This document shows positions 29,240 to 45,854 of a stretch of 45,854 nucleotides of DNA, piece after piece; the stretch's first letter is position 1, and every line of letters begins with the position of its first letter. Source of the stretch: Gammaproteobacteria bacterium (GTDB lineage: Bacteria; Pseudomonadota; Gammaproteobacteria; Steroidobacterales; Steroidobacteraceae). The position numbers and the translations under genes were made by a program. The notes beneath the pieces are model-generated. The model was not told the DNA's origin and did not search any database. It worked only from the letters and a program-made list of their open reading frames with translations. The stretch is from positions 1-45,854 of the forward strand of contig VBMV01000084.1 of the NCBI GenBank assembly GCA_005878835.1, read 5' to 3'.

Positions 29240-30805
29240 CTAGTGCACCCGTGCACCCTTCCACGTGACCGTGGAGTGGCAGCGGTCGCACTGGCGCCCG
29301 TACTGCCCGACGTGCACGTCGTCCTTCTCGTGGCACGAGAGGCAATCCTGCTTGAGCTTCACTTCGTCCGGTGGCCGCAGGTGGCAGGCCTCGCAGGTGA
29401 GCTTGCCGTGCGCACCGGTGAGGGCAAATCCGGTCTCCTTGCCGTGGTCGAACTCCCACATTTTCCAGCCGTTCGAGGAGTGGCAGCGAGCGCAGTCCTT
29501 GCCCAGATTGCCCTTATGCACGTCGTCCTTGCGATGGCAGTCGATACACTCCTTGCCGACGTCGCGGTACTGGCGGGTCAGATGGCACTGCTCGCACGGA
29601 ACCGCGACGTGCAGACCCACCAGCGGAAAGCTCGTGAGGTCGTGATCGAAGCTCACGCTGGAGCGCCAGCCAGCCGGCGTGTGGCACTCATCGCATTTCT
29701 TGCCGAGCTTGCCGGCGTGCACGTCGTTCGGCCGGTGGCAGCTGACGCATTCGGTGGGCAGCTTCTGCGTCGCCACGCTCGCGGTATGGCAGGTATGACA
29801 CGCGACCTTCTCGTGACGGCCGACGAGCGGCCACTTGGTGTCGCGCGTATGGTCAAAGCTCGAGGGCTTCCACTTCTCGTTGCCATGACAGGTGCCGCAG
29901 TCCTTGCCGAGGCGGCCGGCGTGCGCGTCCTGCGCCTGGTGACAGCCGGAGCACTCGCGCGGCAGCTTGTCCTTGAGATTGCCCGTGCGGTGGCAGTCGT
30001 TGCAGGCGATGCGGTCGTGCACGCCCTCGAGCGCGAAACCGGTCTCCTTCTTGTGATCGAACTTCGAGTTCTTCCAGGCGCTGGTGACGTGGCACTCGGC
30101 GCACTTGACGCCCCGGTCGCCGTGGTGCACGTCGTCCGGCTCGTGGCACGAGACGCACTCTTTGGGCGTATTTTTATAACGGTTGCCGAAGTGACAGGCC
30201 GCGCAGGGCGCCTCACGGTGCTGGTCCCGCAGTGGAAACGCGGTCTTGTCGTGATCGTAGCTTATGTGGCGCCAGGCGCTGGCGTCGTGACAGGAGCCGC
30301 AGTCACGCCCCAGTTTGCCCTCGTGGGGCTCCTCCTTGCGGTGGCAGCCGATGCACTCCCTGGGCGCGTCGCGGTAACGCTTGCCGGCGGCGTGGCAGCT
30401 CTCGCACACCACGTCGGCGTGCGCGCCGCGCAGCGGATAGTCGGTGTTCTCGTGATTGAACTGCTCGTGACTCAACTTCACGATGTCCGCCTCCCGACCC
30501 AGATGTTCGGAGTGGCAGGCGCGGCACTGTGAGGTGTCGATGCCGGGGAACCGGCCGTGGAAGCCGCGTCGCTCATGCAGGTCGCCGGCGATCTCCTTAT
30601 GGCAATCGAGGCACAACTGCGTCTGGCGATTGCGGTCGGTGCGGTCGTGGCACAGCGAGCACTGCTCTTCGTATTTCACATGAGCGGCGCTCAGCTTGCC
30701 GGGCATGAGGAGCGTCTCTGGATTCACGGCCTCAGCGGGCCTCACCGATATCAGCACCAACAGCAATCCCAATGTCAGCAGCGCGTAACATCGTCGCCCC
30801 GTCAT
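29240..30805 (-). CDS. 21-heme c-type cytochrome (periplasmic partner of the conduit)
   Basis: The ATG at 30805 begins a signal peptide (CYALLTLGLLLVLISVRPAEA). The longer frame upstream overlaps the membrane-protein gene and is rejected. The 521-residue product has 21 CXXCH motifs spaced about 20-25 residues apart, from CSLCH to CDRCH, in a repeating pattern with Lys/Asp/His-rich linkers (KECVSCHEPDDVHHGDRG-like units). There is no CX4CH motif. One heme per 25 residues is dense, so it is likely an elongated wire spanning the periplasm between the inner-membrane b-type protein upstream and the 40-heme/porin complex downstream. It is the third gene of the six-gene operon. Confidence 0.94.
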   Translation of the reverse strand: MTGRRCYALLTLGLLLVLISVRPAEAVNPETLLMPGKLSAAHVKYEEQCSLCHDRTDRNRQTQLCLDCHKEIAGDLHERRGFHGRFPGIDTSQCRACHSEHLGREADIVKLSHEQFNHENTDYPLRGAHADVVCESCHAAGKRYRDAPRECIGCHRKEEPHEGKLGRDCGSCHDASAWRHISYDHDKTAFPLRDQHREAPCAACHFGNRYKNTPKECVSCHEPDDVHHGDRGVKCAECHVTSAWKNSKFDHKKETGFALEGVHDRIACNDCHRTGNLKDKLPRECSGCHQAQDAHAGRLGKDCGTCHGNEKWKPSSFDHTRDTKWPLVGRHEKVACHTCHTASVATQKLPTECVSCHRPNDVHAGKLGKKCDECHTPAGWRSSVSFDHDLTSFPLVGLHVAVPCEQCHLTRQYRDVGKECIDCHRKDDVHKGNLGKDCARCHSSNGWKMWEFDHGKETGFALTGAHGKLTCEACHLRPPDEVKLKQDCLSCHEKDDVHVGQYGRQCDRCHSTVTWKGARVH

Positions 30806-30825
30806 GTCGGTGGCGGAAGGTCGAT

Positions 30826-32157
30826 CTAGTAAACGTGGACCGCAATCACGTGAATCACCGCGGCGATCACCATGATGAAGATCAATGGTATATGCAGCGC
30901 GTGCCACAGTGAGAACAGCCGTTCGTAACCCTCGAAACCGGCTACCCGCCGCGTCGCGGCCAGCCTCCGGTCGACGTAACAGCGGGCCGTGAGCCCGAGG
31001 CGCTTGTGCTCGAGCGCGACCACCGCGGATCTGCGGGCGCCGGCGTGCAGCGCGTGGCGGATATAGCGGTGCAGCTGCCAGCGCGCCTCGAACGCTATGA
31101 ATGCGACCACGGGCGGTTTGGCGAATCCAAGGAATGACAGGTGCGGCCCGGCTTTGAGCAGACGCTGCTCGACCGCCTCGATGCGCGTCACCAGCTCGGG
31201 CAGAAAGCTGATGCTGCCGGACAGGTTGCGCAGGCCCTCGGCGCCGGTGCGCAATTCCCCCAGCTCCAGTTTGCGGCCGTACAAGCCGTGGTGGATGTGC
31301 ACGTAGATGTAGCGGCCGATGAGGCCGCTGATGGCAACGGTGAGCATCGAGAACAGCGCCACGTTGCTGTTGGTGGCGCCGATGCCGAAATTTGCGTGAT
31401 ACAGGATGCACACGGGTCCCGCGATCCCGAGCACCATGTGAAAGCGGAACCAACCCGGCGTCGAGCCGAGGAAGCTGAGCCACGTCCAGCGCTTGCGCAA
31501 CGAATACACCAGCAGCAGCAGCATCAGGCTCCCGCCGATGATGCCGAGCCAGTAACCCACGCCGCGATTGGGGCTGATGTAGCGCGCAGTCTGGGTGTTC
31601 CAGCCGAGGTACAGCACCGCGGTCACCAGCACGAAAAACAACCGGCCGCCGCTCAGCAGCCGCCTGCGCGGCGGCTGCGGCTCCGCCTGAGGTGCCACCG
31701 CCGGAGCCGCGGTGCGCTTCGCGGCCGCCGGCGGCGGCTGGGGTGACGGGGGCGGTTGCGGCGCCGGGCGCGCTTGCGGTGCCGGTTGGGGCGGTTGTGG
31801 TGCCGGGCGCGCTTGCGGCGCCGGTTGGGGTGGTTGTGGTGCCGGGCGCGTTTGCGGCACCGGCCGGGCCGCCGCCGGGGGCGGCGGTTGCGGCGCCGGG
31901 CGGGGCGGTTGCGGCGGCTGCGGTGCCGCGCGCGCCCGGACCGGAACCGTCTCCGCGGCATCCGCGGTCGCAGGGCGGGGCTTTTGCGGCGGCCGGTATG
32001 CCGCGCGAGAGCGGACCGGAACCGTCTCCGGCGTATCCCCGGTCGCAGGGCGAGCCACCCGGGGACCGAGCTCGTTCAGGCGCACGACCCTGACCTCGAG
32101 CTCCTGCAGCTCCTGCAGCTCTTCGGTCTCCGGAAGTGGTTGGCGGCGCGCTGCCAT
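30826..32157 (-). CDS. Inner-membrane b-type cytochrome-like protein with a proline-rich N-terminus
   Basis: The protein has 443 residues. Residues 1-170 are cytoplasm-type, acidic then Pro/Ala/Gln-rich (repeated RPAPQPPQPAPQA and ETVPVR units). About five membrane segments follow: near 171-186, 203-220, 238-257, 267-287 and 422-443. Histidines lie in or beside them (FHMVLG, ILYH, YVHIHHG, LWHALHIP, IHVIAVH), as in di-heme cytochrome b or ferric-reductase-like membrane proteins. It probably exchanges electrons between the quinone pool or a cytoplasmic donor and the periplasmic 21-heme cytochrome. It is 8 nt after the CcmI-like gene and 20 nt before the 21-heme gene. Heme ligation is inferred from the histidine placement. 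Confidence 0.75.
   Translation of the reverse strand: MAARRQPLPETEELQELQELEVRVVRLNELGPRVARPATGDTPETVPVRSRAAYRPPQKPRPATADAAETVPVRARAAPQPPQPPRPAPQPPPPAAARPVPQTRPAPQPPQPAPQARPAPQPPQPAPQARPAPQPPPSPQPPPAAAKRTAAPAVAPQAEPQPPRRRLLSGGRLFFVLVTAVLYLGWNTQTARYISPNRGVGYWLGIIGGSLMLLLLVYSLRKRWTWLSFLGSTPGWFRFHMVLGIAGPVCILYHANFGIGATNSNVALFSMLTVAISGLIGRYIYVHIHHGLYGRKLELGELRTGAEGLRNLSGSISFLPELVTRIEAVEQRLLKAGPHLSFLGFAKPPVVAFIAFEARWQLHRYIRHALHAGARRSAVVALEHKRLGLTARCYVDRRLAATRRVAGFEGYERLFSLWHALHIPLIFIMVIAAVIHVIAVHVY
31763..31879 (-). repeat. 39-nt tandem repeat encoding a Pro/Ala/Gln motif
   Basis: Three copies with a 39-nt period (starting about 31763, 31802 and 31841) encode RPAPQPPQPAPQA-type units in the N-terminal extension of the membrane protein. 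Such repeats expand and contract easily. Confidence 0.75.
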
Positions 32158-38804: not shown

Positions 38805-39095
38805 ATGAAGCCATCCGAGGCCCTTGCTATTCACCGGATCGCTCTGCGGCGGCTCCTGAACCGTCACGGTTTCGCTCATCCGCGTGTTTTCGGGTCGGTT
38901 TTGACCAAGACAGATACGGAGGAAAGCGATCTCGACGTACTGGTGGAATCCCGGCGGGGCACCACTCTCTTCACACTGGTAGGCGTGGAAGACGAAGCGC
39001 AGCAATTGACGGGCGTGCGTGTGTCGGTGTTGACGCCTGGATTCTTGTCGCCGAAATTCCGTGACAGGGTGCTTCAGCAAGCCGAACCGCTATGA
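38805..39095 (+). CDS. mntA: MntA-type nucleotidyltransferase antitoxin
   Basis: The 96-residue protein has the minimal nucleotidyltransferase motif: GS at FGSV, then SDLDVLVE with the two catalytic Asp residues, and a later VSVLTPGF strand. This matches MntA antitoxins of HEPN/MNT (type VII) modules, which inactivate the HepT ribonuclease by adenylylating its tyrosine. The stop overlaps the start of the following HepT gene (ATGA), as is usual. The gene looks intact although its toxin partner is broken. Codon use and flanking debris suggest a mobile accessory segment. Confidence 0.88.
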   Translation: MKPSEALAIHRIALRRLLNRHGFAHPRVFGSVLTKTDTEESDLDVLVESRRGTTLFTLVGVEDEAQQLTGVRVSVLTPGFLSPKFRDRVLQQAEPL

Positions 39096-39454
39096 CGCAT
39101 CCGGACCGCGCCGAGGACTATCTCGAACACATCGCCGATGCGATACAACGTGCCACGCGCTACGTCGGAAACCTGAAGAACCTCGAAGCCCTCGAAAAGG
39201 ACGAGCAAGCCCAGGACGCGATCGTGCGCACGATCGCGGTGATAGGCGAGGCGGCCAATAGGATTCAGAAAGTAGCCCTGAATTTGTAGCGAAGCATCCC
39301 GAGCTACCTTGGAGCAAGATGCGCGGCAATTCGCAACAAAGTCATCCACGACTATTTCGATGTTGCCTGGGATGTCGTTTGGGACACCGTTAAGAGCGAT
39401 CTGCCGCCACTGTTGGAGCGAGTCAAATCACTGTTGGCGAAGCACAAGAAATGA
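39092..39454 (+). pseudogene. hepT: HepT (HEPN, DUF86) toxin inactivated by two frameshifts
   Basis: The frame starts as a normal HepT (DRAEDYLEHIADAIQRATRY, TIAVIGEAANRIQKVA) but stops at 39287-39289 after 65 codons. Adding one base near 39278 restores PEFVAKHPELPWSKMRG, and removing one A near 39328 restores IRNKVIHDYFDVAWDVVWDT and an end at 39454 (LLAKHKK). With both repairs the length (120 aa) is that of a full HepT. The catalytic and modification motif RX4HXY (RNKVIHDY) lies in the lost part, so the toxin should be dead unless the two indels are sequence errors. Confidence 0.85.
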
Positions 39455-39647: not shown

Positions 39648-40003
39648 GCCTGGGTGGCGAAATCGGTAGACGCAAGGGACTTGAAGAAATATTGAGCACC
39701 CGGCTCGGAAACGGCCGGCGTGAATGGGGTCAAATTCGGTGGAACAGTAGCGACGTCACGGCGCCTGCAATACCGAGCTAAGCCTTGGTCGACTCCTCAG
39801 CATTCATCGCATGCCGGCCAGGGAAAGTGTAGAGACTTGACGGCCCCTGCCTAATCCGTGTGCACTAATCAAGGAGTGATCACGGGACGGCAAAGGTAAA
39901 GTCCAGACCACAAATGCACGCGCTGTGTGCAGCAGCGAAAGCTGTAGTGGTATGAAAATCCCTTGGGGGAGACCCCATGCCGGTTCGAGTCCGGCCCCAG
40001 GCA
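39648..40003 (+). tRNA. leuZ: tRNA-Leu(UAA), interrupted by a group I intron in the anticodon loop
   Basis: Exon 1 is 39648-39682 and exon 2 is 39955-40003. Joined, they fold perfectly: acceptor GCCTGGG/CCCAGGC, D-stem GCG/CGC, anticodon stem AGGGA/TCCCT with loop CTT-AAAA (anticodon TAA), long variable arm TGGGG-GAGA-CCCCA (class II, as for leucine), T-stem GCCGG/CCGGC with loop TTCGAGT, and discriminator A. CCA is not encoded. The intron lies between U34 and A35 of the anticodon, the classic site of cyanobacterial and plastid tRNA-Leu(UAA) introns. Standard tRNA scanning that expects no large intron would miss the gene. The gene symbol follows general usage and is not certain for this organism. 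Confidence 0.95.
39683..39954 (+). ncRNA. Group I self-splicing intron (IC3-like) in tRNA-Leu(UAA), 272 nt
   Basis: Exon 1 ends in U and the intron ends in G (39954), as required for group I splicing. The conserved core is in order: P with TCGGT at 39736-39740 pairing Q at ACCGA 39772-39776 (P4; Q reads AATACCGAGCTAAGCC), R AGAGACTTGACGG at 39831-39843, and S AAGGTAAAGTCC at 39893-39904. GACTT of R pairs AAGTC of S (P7). A P8 hairpin has CCGTG/CACGG arms, and CAGCGAAAGCTG near the 3' end is a P9-like GNRA hairpin. The order and the R/S/Q sequences resemble the cyanobacterial tRNA-Leu introns as I recall them. No endonuclease gene fits inside. P1 and P10 pairings were not resolved by eye. Confidence 0.93.
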
Positions 40004-41674: not shown

Positions 41675-42714
41675 CGCTCAGCGATGGAACGTCGCATCCG
41701 ACACTCGATGATGCGGTCCGGGCAGACTCTTTGTAATGGTTGACTGCGTCGTATCGCTGTAGACGTGGCAGGCGCCGCTGCAGTTGGCGAGCTCCGTGGC
41801 GGTGTAGGTGAGGCCCTTGACGGTCTTCGGGTGCGCCGCGGGCTTGAAGTCCTTCGCGTGGCAGCCGGCGCAGGTGCCGGCGTTCGCTGCCGAGGGGTAG
41901 GGCACCTGGTCGGTGTTGGAGGTGTGGCAGCTGGTGCAGCTCAGCGCGGCGCGATGCGCTCCCGGGTAGGCGGCGCTGGTGTGCCGGAAGCGGATGAGGC
42001 TCCAGTCCGGGAAGCTGTGACAGGTGGCGCAGTCGCGCCGGGTGAGCATGTGCCCGGGCGAGAGGCCGACGGCGCCGCCGTTGTTGTGGCAGGCGGCGCA
42101 GCCGCTGATGAAGCCCGAGTGATCGATCCTGGCAGGTTTCCAGGCGAGGGTGCCGTGGCAGGTATCGCACTGCTGGGTGGTCGGGATGTGGGTGCGCGGC
42201 ATGCCGATGGCTTGCACGGAGTTGTGGCAGGTGCTGCAGGTATGCGCGGCGACGGCGGCGTGATCAAAGCGCGCCGGCGTCCAGGCGTTGGTGGTGTGGC
42301 AGCGCTCGCAGCCGGCGCTGGTGGCGAGGTGGCGCGAGGGCTTGCCGCTCGCCACGACCCCGTTGTGGCAGCTCACACAGCTGCCTCGGACCTGGGTGTG
42401 ATCTACCGTCTGGCAGCCAGGCGAGCGTCGTGTGACAGCTCTGACAGGCGTCGGTGGTCGCGATGTGAGTCGGCGGCTTGCCGGCCCCGCTCGCGGCGGT
42501 GTGGCAGGTGACACAGGCGGTCCCGGCGACGGTCGCGTGATTGAACGGCGCGCCGGAGGCGGCGGTGCCCGCTTGCACCGGCGCAGGCGCGCCAGTGCCG
42601 GCAGCCGGCACCACGACAGCAGGAGTTGCCGTCCCGGCGCGCAGGGCGGGGCCCACACTCGTGCGGGGGGTGACGCCCGTGGCGGGCTTGGTGGTGGTGG
42701 ACGCGGTCCTCGTC
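41675..42714 (-). repeat. Long direct repeat, copy 2 (partner 25320-26364)
   Basis: This is nearly identical to 25320-26364 on the same strand. Its left edge at 41675 falls about seven codons inside what was the porin gene (ATGCGACGTTCCATCGCTGAG is shared in two parts), after which unrelated sequence begins. It is 5 nt shorter because of a deletion at 42410/42411. Confidence 0.93.
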
Positions 42715-45700
42715 GTCGCCGGCCGAAGGGCGAGCTTGTCGCGCGAGCTGTGGCAACCCGAGCCGCCGCAGTCCTGGCCGGTGTGGTGGCCGCTGGGGCG
42801 TTTCCACAGGCTGCCGTTGGTCTTCCACGTCATGCCCTTCTCGTGGCAGCTCATGCACGTCATCGAGGTCACGTACGCGTGCTTCATGACGGTACCAGAG
42901 AACGCGGTGAACACGGCCGCCGAGTGGCACAGCTCGCAGGCGAGCTTGGCGGTGCCGTTGGGCGGATTGGACGGAATGTGCCCGGTGGCCCCGGAGGGAG
43001 GCTGCTTGAGGGTTGGCGACGCCATGTTGTAGAAGCTCAGCCCGTAAGCGTGGCACTGCGCGCAATTGCTGGTGATGCCCGCATGCCCGACCGTACCCAT
43101 CACATACAGGGCGTAGTTGCCGGCGGTCGTGTGGCACTGGGCGCACGGCGCGTTGGTTGGAATGTGAGTCGCCGGTTTGGCGCTGCTGCCCATCTGATTG
43201 GTGGCAAACGTCGGGCTGGTCGTGTGGCAGCCGTTGCAGTCACCGCTGGCCGGATGGGCCTTGTCGTATGCCTGGGGACGCGAGTCGCCCCAGGCGCTCG
43301 CGGTGCCGGCCACCATTCCCAGGTAGAGCGAGGTCTCGTGACAGGTCTGGCAGCCGCCGACCGCAGCCGCCACCGTGGTATGGCCGGCGACCGAGAGTGT
43401 CGGCGTGTTGACGCTCGCCGTGCCGAGCCTGAAGCCCCCCGGATTCACGTTGTTGGTGCTGTGGCAGCCCGAGCGGTTGCAGTCGAGCGTGCCGAACGGG
43501 ATGTGATTGCTCGGGTTGCTGACGATCTTGATGTTGGCGAAAGTGCCGGCGACCGTCGAGCCGTGACAGGTGAGGCACCCGGTCACGCCCTGGTGCGTGC
43601 CGGTGACGGAGTAGGCCGCGTAGTTGCCCGCCGTCGTGTGGCACTGAGCGCACGCCGCAGTGGTCGGAATGTGGTTCGCGGGCTTGGCGTTACCGGTCTG
43701 GTCGGTCGCGAACGTGGGCGTCGTGGTGTGGCAGCCGTTGCAGTCGCCAGAGGTCGGATGGGCCTTGTCGAACGCGGTCGGACGGGAGTCTCCGGCCGTG
43801 GTCGAGGTGCTGGCGAGCATCCCGACGTAGGGCGCGCTCTCGTGACAGGTCTGACAGCTCGCCACCGCCGCCGCCACCGTGGTGTGGCCGGCGACCGTGA
43901 GTGTCGGAGTCGAGATGCTCGCCGTGCCGAGCTTGAAGCCGCCCGCGTTCACGTTCGTCGTGGTGTGACAGCCCGAGCGGTTGCAATCGAGCGTGCCGAA
44001 CGGGATGTGATTGCTCGGGTTGCTGACGATCTTGATGTTGGCGAAAGTGCCGGCGACCGTCGAGCCGTGACAGGTGAGGCACCCGGTCACGCCCTGGTGC
44101 GTGCCCGTGACCGAGTAGAGCGCGTTATTGCCCGCGGTCGTGTGGCACTGCGCGCACGGCGCCGTGGTCGGAATGTGGTTCGCGGGCTTGGCGTTACCGG
44201 TCTGGTCGGTCGCGAAGGTGGGCGTCGTCGTGTGGCAACCGTTGCAGTCCCCGCTCGTGGGGTGGTTCTTGTCGAACGCAGTCGGACGGGAGTCTCCGGC
44301 CATGGTCGAGGTGCTGGCGAGCATCCCGACGTAGGGCGCGCTCTCGTGACAGGTCTGACAGCTCGCCACCGCCGCCGCCACCGTGGTGTGGCCGGCGACC
44401 GTGAGTGTCGGGCTCGCCATGCTCGCCGTGCCGAGCTTGAAGCCGCCCGCATTCACATTGGTCGTGGTGTGACAGCCCGAGCCGTTGCAATCGAGCGTGC
44501 CGATCGGCATGTGATTGGCGGGCGTGCTGACCAGGGTGACGTTGACGAAGGGCCCGACCGTGGGGCCGTGACAGGTCAGGCACCCGGTCACACCCTGGTG
44601 GGTGCCGGTGACGGAATAGAGCGCGAAGTTGCCCGTCGTCGTGTGGCACTGCGCGCACACGGCGGTCGTGGGGATGTGATTGGCGGGCTTCGGGGCTGTG
44701 GGGAGCAGATCTGTCGCGAACGTGGGCGTGGTCACGTGGCAGTTGCCGCAGTCGCCCGTGGTCGGGTGCTTGGAGTCGTACGCGGTCGGGCGAGAGTCTC
44801 CTCCGGGCGGCGCCGTGCTCGGGGTCATCCCGATGTAGGGCGCGCTCTCGTGACAGGTCGCGCAGGCGGCCACCGCCGCCATCACCGTCCCATGGCCGGT
44901 GACCGTGAGCGTCGGACTTGAGATGTTGGCCGTACCGAGCTTGAAGCCGCCGGCATTCACATTGCTGGTGGTGTGACAGCCCGAGCCGTTGCAATCGAGG
45001 TTGCCGATCGGCATGTGATTGCCGGGCGTGCTGACTAGGGTGACGTTGACGAAGGGCCCGACCGTGGAACCGTGACAGGACAGACACCCGCTCACACCCT
45101 GGTGCGTGCCGGTGACGGAATACAGCGCATAGTTGCCCGCGGTGGTGTGGCACTGTGCGCACGGCGCCGTGGTCGGAATATGGTTCGCGGGCTTGGCGCC
45201 GCCGGTCACATCGCTGGCAAAGGTCGGCGTGGTCGTGTGGCAGCCGTTGCAGTCGCCACCGGTCGGATGGATCTTGTCCAGCGCGGTCGGACGCGAGTCT
45301 CCCGCGGTGCTCGCGCTGCTCGCGATCATCCCCAGGTAGGGCGCGCTCTCGTGACAGGTCTGACAGGCAGCGACGGCCGCCGCCACCGTGGTGTGGCCTG
45401 CGATGCTGAGCGTGGGACTCGAGATGCTCGCGGTGCCGAGCTTGAAGCCGCCCGCATTCACATTGGTCGTGGTGTGGCAGCCCGAGCCGTTGCAGTCCAG
45501 GCTGCCGAACGGCATGTGATTGCTCGGGTTGGTGACCAGGGTGACGTTGGCGAAGGTCGTGGCCACCGTCGAACCGTGACAGGTGAGACACCCCGTGACG
45601 CCCTGGTGCGTGCCCGTGACCGAGTAGGCCGCGTAGTTGCCGGCGCTGGTGTGGCACTGGGCGCACGGCGCGCTGGTCGGAATATGGTTCGCGGGCTTGC

Positions 45701-45854
45701 CGGCTCCGGTCACATCGCTGGCAAAGGTCGGTGTCGTCGTATGACAGCCGTTGCAGTCGCCGCTCGTGGGATGGTTCTTGTCGAACGCAGTCGGACGGGA
45801 GTCTCCGGCCATGGTCGAGGTGCTGGCGAGCATCCCGACGTAGGGCGCACTCTC
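41678..45854 (-). pseudogene. Second giant multiheme cytochrome: frameshifted, 5' end beyond the window
   Basis: The gene is open to the window edge. Before the frameshift the visible part has 27 CXXCH and six CX4CH motifs (CNGSGCH, CNRSGCH, CGGSGCH). At 42410/42411 five bases present in the sister gene (from TTGACC on the plus strand) are missing: the frame passes from TTLAWLP into unrelated sequence and stops at 42264. The original frame resumes with TVDHTQVRGSCVSCH and runs to 41678 with 8 more CXXCH and one CX3CH, giving 42 motifs in the visible gene. A product ending at 42264 would lack the C-terminal nine motifs but keep the modular heme wire. No porin gene follows, unlike the first cluster. 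It is homologous to the 25323-29231 gene throughout. The deletion could be an assembly error, though it lies in unique context. Confidence 0.88.
43334..45850 (-). repeat. Tandem 504-nt modules within the second cytochrome gene
   Basis: The marker TCTCGTGAC (heme motif of CQTCHES-type) recurs at about 43334, 43838, 44342, 44846, 45347 and 45851: periods of 504, 504, 504, 501 and 504 nt. Each unit of about 168 codons encodes five heme motifs in fixed order: CXTCH, CNGCH, CAQCH, CLTCH, CNxSGCH. Two neighbouring units share stretches over 100 nt long with almost no change (around 43480-43610 and 43984-44114), so recent unit duplication is likely. Copy 1 has only three such units. Confidence 0.9.

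Follow-up and report, generated by a model that had tools for sequence, protein, structure and literature searches.

The group I intron of tRNA-Leu(UAA) is usually told as an old trait of cyanobacteria and plastids. A group I intron also interrupts a proteobacterial tRNA, the tRNA-Ile(CAU) of Azoarcus, after U36, and Vepritskiy et al. reportedly described in 2002 a tRNA-Leu(UAA) intron in a subsurface gammaproteobacterium. Thiomargarita and Beggiatoa, which are further hosts, we take to be gammaproteobacteria as well. Introns of tRNA-Leu(UAA) have been published for Thiomargarita Bud S10 and Beggiatoa BOGUAY (PMC4853749); the available parts of two reviews (PMC4033280, PMC11408192) name bacterial tRNA introns only in cyanobacteria, alphaproteobacteria and betaproteobacteria. 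Here, we confirm that positions 39648-40003 of the window, by which we mean the whole 45,854-nucleotide stretch of DNA analysed, are a tRNA-Leu(UAA) gene interrupted by a 272-nt group I intron.

The split gene and the fold of its intron

With introns allowed, ARAGORN joined the two exons into an 84-nt class II tRNA-Leu(UAA) with a sound tRNA fold and placed the insertion between U34 and A35, presumably the site used by the tRNA-Leu(UAA) intron family as a whole. The structure P1-P9 was drawn by hand on the window sequence, and the intron is a candidate member of subgroup IC3. Rows and cells in the list are those of the alignment described below it.

39648..39682, + strand: 5' exon of tRNA-Leu(UAA), last base U34 (ARAGORN, introns allowed)
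39683..39954, + strand: group I intron, 272 nt, terminal G at 39954 (ARAGORN; covarying structure; covariance model R1, 131 bits)
39955..40003, + strand: 3' exon of tRNA-Leu(UAA), from A35 to the discriminator, CCA not encoded (ARAGORN)
39680-39684 with 39692-39696 (39680..39696), + strand: P1; all 51 distinct rows have a U.G wobble at the 5' splice site, formed in the window by U34 (39682)
39697-39703 with 39715-39722, + strand: P2, drawn on the window and followed in the alignment
39726-39731 with 39842-39847, + strand: P3, all cells (100%) paired, 3 of the 6 pairs with changes on both sides
39735-39740 with 39772-39777, + strand: P4, drawn on the window and followed in the alignment
39745-39747 with 39765-39767, + strand: P5, 81% paired, lower than P4
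39783-39788 with 39818-39823, + strand: P6, changes on both sides in all 6 pairs; its loop is the site of the HNH gene in longer relatives
39834-39838 with 39899-39903, + strand: P7, GACUU/AAGUC, invariant; 34 of the 52 rows were fetched by the P7 motif
39848-39851 with 39889-39892, + strand: outer P8, 97% paired
39855-39860 with 39881-39886, + strand: inner P8, 80% paired
39907-39911 with 39947-39951 (region 39907..39951), + strand: P9, drawn on the window and followed in the alignment
within 39907..39951, + strand: P9a and P9b, the latter capped by a GAAA loop at 39937-39940

The alignment holds 52 tRNA-Leu(UAA) introns (51 distinct) with 10 exon bases on each side: the window's own, 17 from its genus and order, and 34 from named records, picked with the P7 pattern fixed and a 5' exon ending in U. 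They were drawn from 77 collected introns, 58 of which measure at most 300 nt; six of those 58 were omitted (L116, L127, L140, L206, L215 and L218). Across the 51 distinct introns, 93.8% of 3,139 cells in P1-P9 are paired, compared with 80.2% in shuffles and 29-43% in slid structures, over which a structure drawn on the window sequence is favoured. Changes on both sides affect 39 of 62 pairs (27.6 in shuffles) and 450 cells (137 in shuffles). The crossing helices of a group I core are both present: P3 carries such double changes, and P7, in rows partly selected by its motif, is invariant, so that covariation lends P7 no support. The minimum-energy fold of the window intron alone contains P1-P6, P8 and P9 and lacks P7; its energy lies 3.2 standard deviations below that of shuffles, none of 200 being as low. 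Every distinct row has a U.G wobble pair at its 5' splice site, the named rows having been preselected for the 5'-exon U, and a terminal G ends all 20 complete introns excised by ARAGORN from the genus and order. The initial annotation had read the exons as a class II tRNA-Leu(UAA) and the interruption as a group I intron with a terminal G, a 5'-exon U and the U34/A35 site. Both readings are borne out, now with exact coordinates, by the ARAGORN boundaries and the P1-P9 alignment; P3 and P7, whose failure to form it had named beforehand as fatal, pair in all 51 distinct rows.

Standard searches pass over this gene. Default ARAGORN, which allows no introns, reports no tRNA in the window, and Rfam reports nothing at gathering scores in the window and nothing at E<=1 in the 1,051 bases around the intron. 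RF00028 leaves the intron unmatched in its own genome even at E<=10, short of its gathering cut-off of 50 bits. The annotation had also held that the lack of a hit to the group I model would refute the intron. That miss did occur, yet the model fell below its cut-off in 10 of 11 bacterial relatives tried and passed in one; a test of so little power would have misled, and the Rfam miss weighs little against the intron. Above the cut-off were five of the six viral loci tried, and the RF00028 list for 60 relatives includes two tRNA-Leu(UAA) introns, at 37 and 29 bits, both below it. A covariance model built from 38 related introns over P3 to P7, the window's own included (R1), scores the window intron at 131 bits. 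Since both default ARAGORN and RF00028 miss the gene, genomes of this group can seem to be without tRNA-Leu(UAA).

The gene had further been described as lying amid rearranged DNA, a claim that stands only in part. Among the genus loci and the listed named-species loci, only L212, "Gammaproteobacteria bacterium 13_2_20CM_66_19", matches the window over a long stretch next to the tRNA (75% identity over 6 kb), and there about 60 nt separate the tRNA from an ankyrin gene, compared with 2.46 kb in the window. Within that interval, window positions 38805-39400 hold a nucleotidyltransferase gene (Pfam NTP_transf_2) followed by a HepT-like frame with an in-frame stop; the block is absent from L212. 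Integration at the tRNA was considered and rejected, there being no second copy of the tRNA 3' end in the window. Elsewhere in the window, two long CXXCH-rich frames at 42264-45833 and 29240-31483, both on the minus strand, appear by eye to be multihaem cytochromes, the former being highly repetitive.

Predicted splicing and the other split RNA genes of the genome

We put at about 0.93 the probability that a compact group I ribozyme, with no endonuclease gene of its own, here interrupts a tRNA-Leu(UAA) gene that is very probably functional. Splicing itself would follow established group I chemistry. The precursor would fold so that exon bases C32-U33-U34 pair with an intron GAG in P1, a guanosine bound in P7 would attack after U34, and the freed U34 would then attack just past the intron's terminal G (39954), so that U34 is ligated to A35 and the UAA anticodon is whole again.

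The 4.18-Mb genome contains 46 Rfam tRNA matches, 40 of them above the cut-off. ARAGORN run on these matches recovers tRNA-Leu UAG, GAG and CAG intact and no intact tRNA-Leu UAA or CAA in an assembly that is 95% complete. The initial annotation had called the intron essential if this were the only tRNA-Leu(UAA). Its premise agrees with the lack of a second copy among the 40 tRNAs above the cut-off in that 95%-complete assembly; the cell's need, like splicing, we infer from the same chemistry. A search of the genome with R1 (150 of 2,168 first-pass candidates scored) gave two further matches at E<=1, both split tRNAs, bringing the split tRNAs to three: Leu(UAA) in the window, Leu(CAA) on contig 14 and Ile(CAU) on contig 103.

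L348:1422-1749, contig 14: split tRNA-Leu(CAA), 241-nt intron after C34
L001:1478-1792, contig 103: split tRNA-Ile(CAU), intron after U36
L034:1-1175, contig 157: group I-like match of 20 bits, short of the cut-off, within the terminal part of a 23S rRNA match

Because the tRNA-Leu(CAA) is split after C34, its 5' splice site pair would be C-G and not the usual U.G. The C34 reading fits 11 of 12 loci tested with an expression that itself required it, and P7 of this intron, by eye GAGCA/UGCUC, differs from GACUU/AAGUC by compensating changes. For the third split tRNA, the ARAGORN label "Gln(CUG)" was rejected in favour of Ile(CAU) with the intron after U36, a reading that fits all 23 loci given to the check (20 from the genus, 3 from the order); the two remaining CAU tRNAs are by eye the elongator and initiator tRNA-Met, both intact. 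On contig 157, the 23S rRNA gene probably contains a further intron, judging from the match. If the assembly is complete for these tRNAs, decoding of UUA, UUG and AUA would all need splicing; these codons number 1, 28 and 6, respectively, among the 2,918 codons of six selected reading frames of the window. The genome seems dependent on several group I introns.

Distribution, ancestry and mobility

The intron is widespread in its genus and not a one-off. Of 37 genus genomes, including the window's own, 21 have a split tRNA-Leu(UAA) gene, clipped by a contig end in two, and 5 have an intact one; the remaining 11 give at most short weak matches. By BLAST coverage, tRNA-Leu(CAA) is split in 23 of the same genomes, intact in 8 and unseen in 6. 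Both genes were seen in 23 genomes: 16 have the two split, 4 have the two intact, 3 have a split UAA gene beside an intact CAA gene, and none shows the converse (Fisher p 0.004, shared ancestry ignored). At least 20 genus genomes have a split Ile(CAU) gene. Distances between Leu(UAA) introns do not clearly run parallel to those of Ile(CAU) introns (r 0.27 over 10 genomes, 389 of 5000 permutations as high) or of Leu(CAA) introns (r -0.19 over 7 genomes, 4084 of 5000 as high). A genus with both split and intact species offers a natural experiment.

Beyond the genus, the split tRNA-Leu(UAA) pattern occurs in 16 of 370 genomes in an even sample of the class, the window's own included, and ARAGORN agrees in 14 of the 16; a pattern for the intact gene matched 15 of the 370, was too narrow, and its figure is not used. 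Searching named species for the P7 pattern returned at least 118 loci. Among the matches listed, ARAGORN finds tRNA-Leu(UAA) at 61 of 118, 57 of them with U34/A35 boundaries; the hosts of the 61 are 41 Gammaproteobacteria, 9 other proteobacteria, 7 Bacteroidota, 2 Bacillota, 1 Chloroflexota and 1 Rhodothermota, the single odd phyla being perhaps misbinned since many source records are metagenome bins. A viral scan, with a pattern biased towards this 3' exon, returned at least 120 loci (L227-L346), and among the matches listed ARAGORN finds a split tRNA-Leu(UAA) at 94 of 120, with introns of 196-221 nt in 86. Phage-typical neighbours (PHROGs) flank three of the four viral loci tested: RIIA and RIIB at L229, endonuclease VII and ligase at L250, and, adjoining the split gene of L304, an integrase gene (L304:1842-3026); L247 has a phosphoesterase only. 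On plasmids, four conjugative Bradyrhizobium and one Cupriavidus, there are partial matches to the split tRNA, covering 25-29% of the query at 75-76% identity.

For the tree, intron cores were cut with the covariance model, a regular expression having lost 86 sources; 16 of 107 rows were dropped (8 sources with two matches each), 133 columns were kept, and there is no cyanobacterial row. On starred branches (99/93 and 100/94), the window intron is nested within a group whose source records are labelled Gammaproteobacteria or Proteobacteria. The Ile introns of the genus form a separate set, and the genus rows do not form a single clade (3 changes). We rely only on the starred nesting of the window, since the tree leaves 21 of 88 inner branches open and brings long branches together.

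Longer relatives carry endonuclease genes. Among the loci listed, 17 bacterial introns measure at least 330 nt, and 10 of these (L113, L114, L117, L126, L136, L153, L172, L183, L184 and L202; lengths 688-739 nt) contain homologous antisense frames, each 154-200 codons long from one stop to the next; the frame starts in P6, between P4 and J6/7, and in 4 of the 10 extends beyond J6/7. Pfam HNH_3 matches nine of the ten at E<=0.001, four at or above its cut-off; L184, the remaining one, shares 69% identity with L113. L119 carries a homologue of the HNH frame in sense, and the 703-nt intron of a congener (L098:1506-2295) a broken antisense HNH frame in P6. A leftover fragment in L194 (475 nt) resembles by eye the start of the HNH protein, and the introns of L097, L180, L210 and L220 show no HNH remnant. 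Viral introns L261 and L318 have homologues at the same place and in the same orientation, 50-53% identical to that of L113, and some other viral introns have them in sense. The window intron has no endonuclease gene. From this distribution of sequences, an earlier spread of the intron by homing is probable, by means of a P6-borne HNH gene that is absent from the window copy.

A recent single transfer from a cyanobacterium would agree with the gene shared with the cyanobacterial and plastid intron and with an insertion site that is presumably the same. PMC4033280, in the part available, also gives tRNA-Leu(UAA) at one exact position in both cyanobacteria and plastids. We nevertheless regard such a transfer as very improbable, given the intron's presence in 21 of 37 congeners and its well-supported nesting among gammaproteobacterial and proteobacterial records, in a tree that has no cyanobacterial row. 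Slightly less credible still is a dead relic, in which the gene no longer splices and UUA is read by another tRNA: an intact copy could be missing from a 95%-complete assembly, but the exons are perfect, the pairing is conserved and no intact copy was found.

A functional split gene could still be one that is mobile today, in trans or via phages, and not a settled resident. The empty site in five congeners, the split tRNA-Leu(UAA) genes on viral contigs and distances that do not clearly track those of the Ile(CAU) or Leu(CAA) introns all speak for present mobility; the window copy, however, is without an endonuclease gene, and the distance tests are small (10 and 7 genomes), so that we consider it unlikely. 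A broader scenario, somewhat more plausible yet tentative, is suggested by the sequences: the tRNA-Leu(UAA) intron would be one branch of a mobile family, in which antisense HNH endonucleases in P6 home into intron-free genes and phages, some apparently T4-like, carry split genes between bacteria. The window copy would then be an endonuclease-free descendant, and every UUA, UUG and AUA tRNA found in its genome would need splicing. The HNH-bearing and phage-borne relatives provide a testable route for the spread of the intron.

Comparison with described tRNA introns

The window intron presumably shares its insertion site and similar ends with the Anabaena intron. In the cyanobacterial tRNA-Leu(UAA) intron, P7 is GACUC/GAGUC, whereas it is GACUU/AAGUC here. 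A cyanobacterial intron probe found no match among plasmids. With the Azoarcus intron, the window intron shares its kind and a proteobacterial tRNA as host, and the window's genome has a split tRNA-Ile(CAU) of its own (L001); the Azoarcus intron differs from that of the window in tRNA and in site, after U36. By title and the start of the abstract, in a literature from which subscription journals are mostly absent, we found no paper on phage tRNA-Leu(UAA) introns or on antisense HNH genes in tRNA introns, and we make no claim that these are unpublished.

The initial annotation had considered proteobacterial tRNA introns better documented in tRNA-Ile and tRNA-Arg. The proteobacterial host stands, but the argument from rarity was too strong, because gammaproteobacterial tRNA-Leu(UAA) introns have been published (PMC4853749) and 61 of the 118 loci listed carry this split gene. 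The cyanobacterial and plastid intron interrupts the same gene (PMC4033280). Thiomargarita and Beggiatoa have the same gene with the same kind of intron, there too absent from automatic annotation, a likeness of description, as the available part of PMC4853749 gives neither structure nor type. The kind of intron is therefore already known, and the window copy adds one well-supported case to it; it is the three split tRNAs of a single genome, the antisense HNH genes and the copies on viral contigs that deserve to be followed up.
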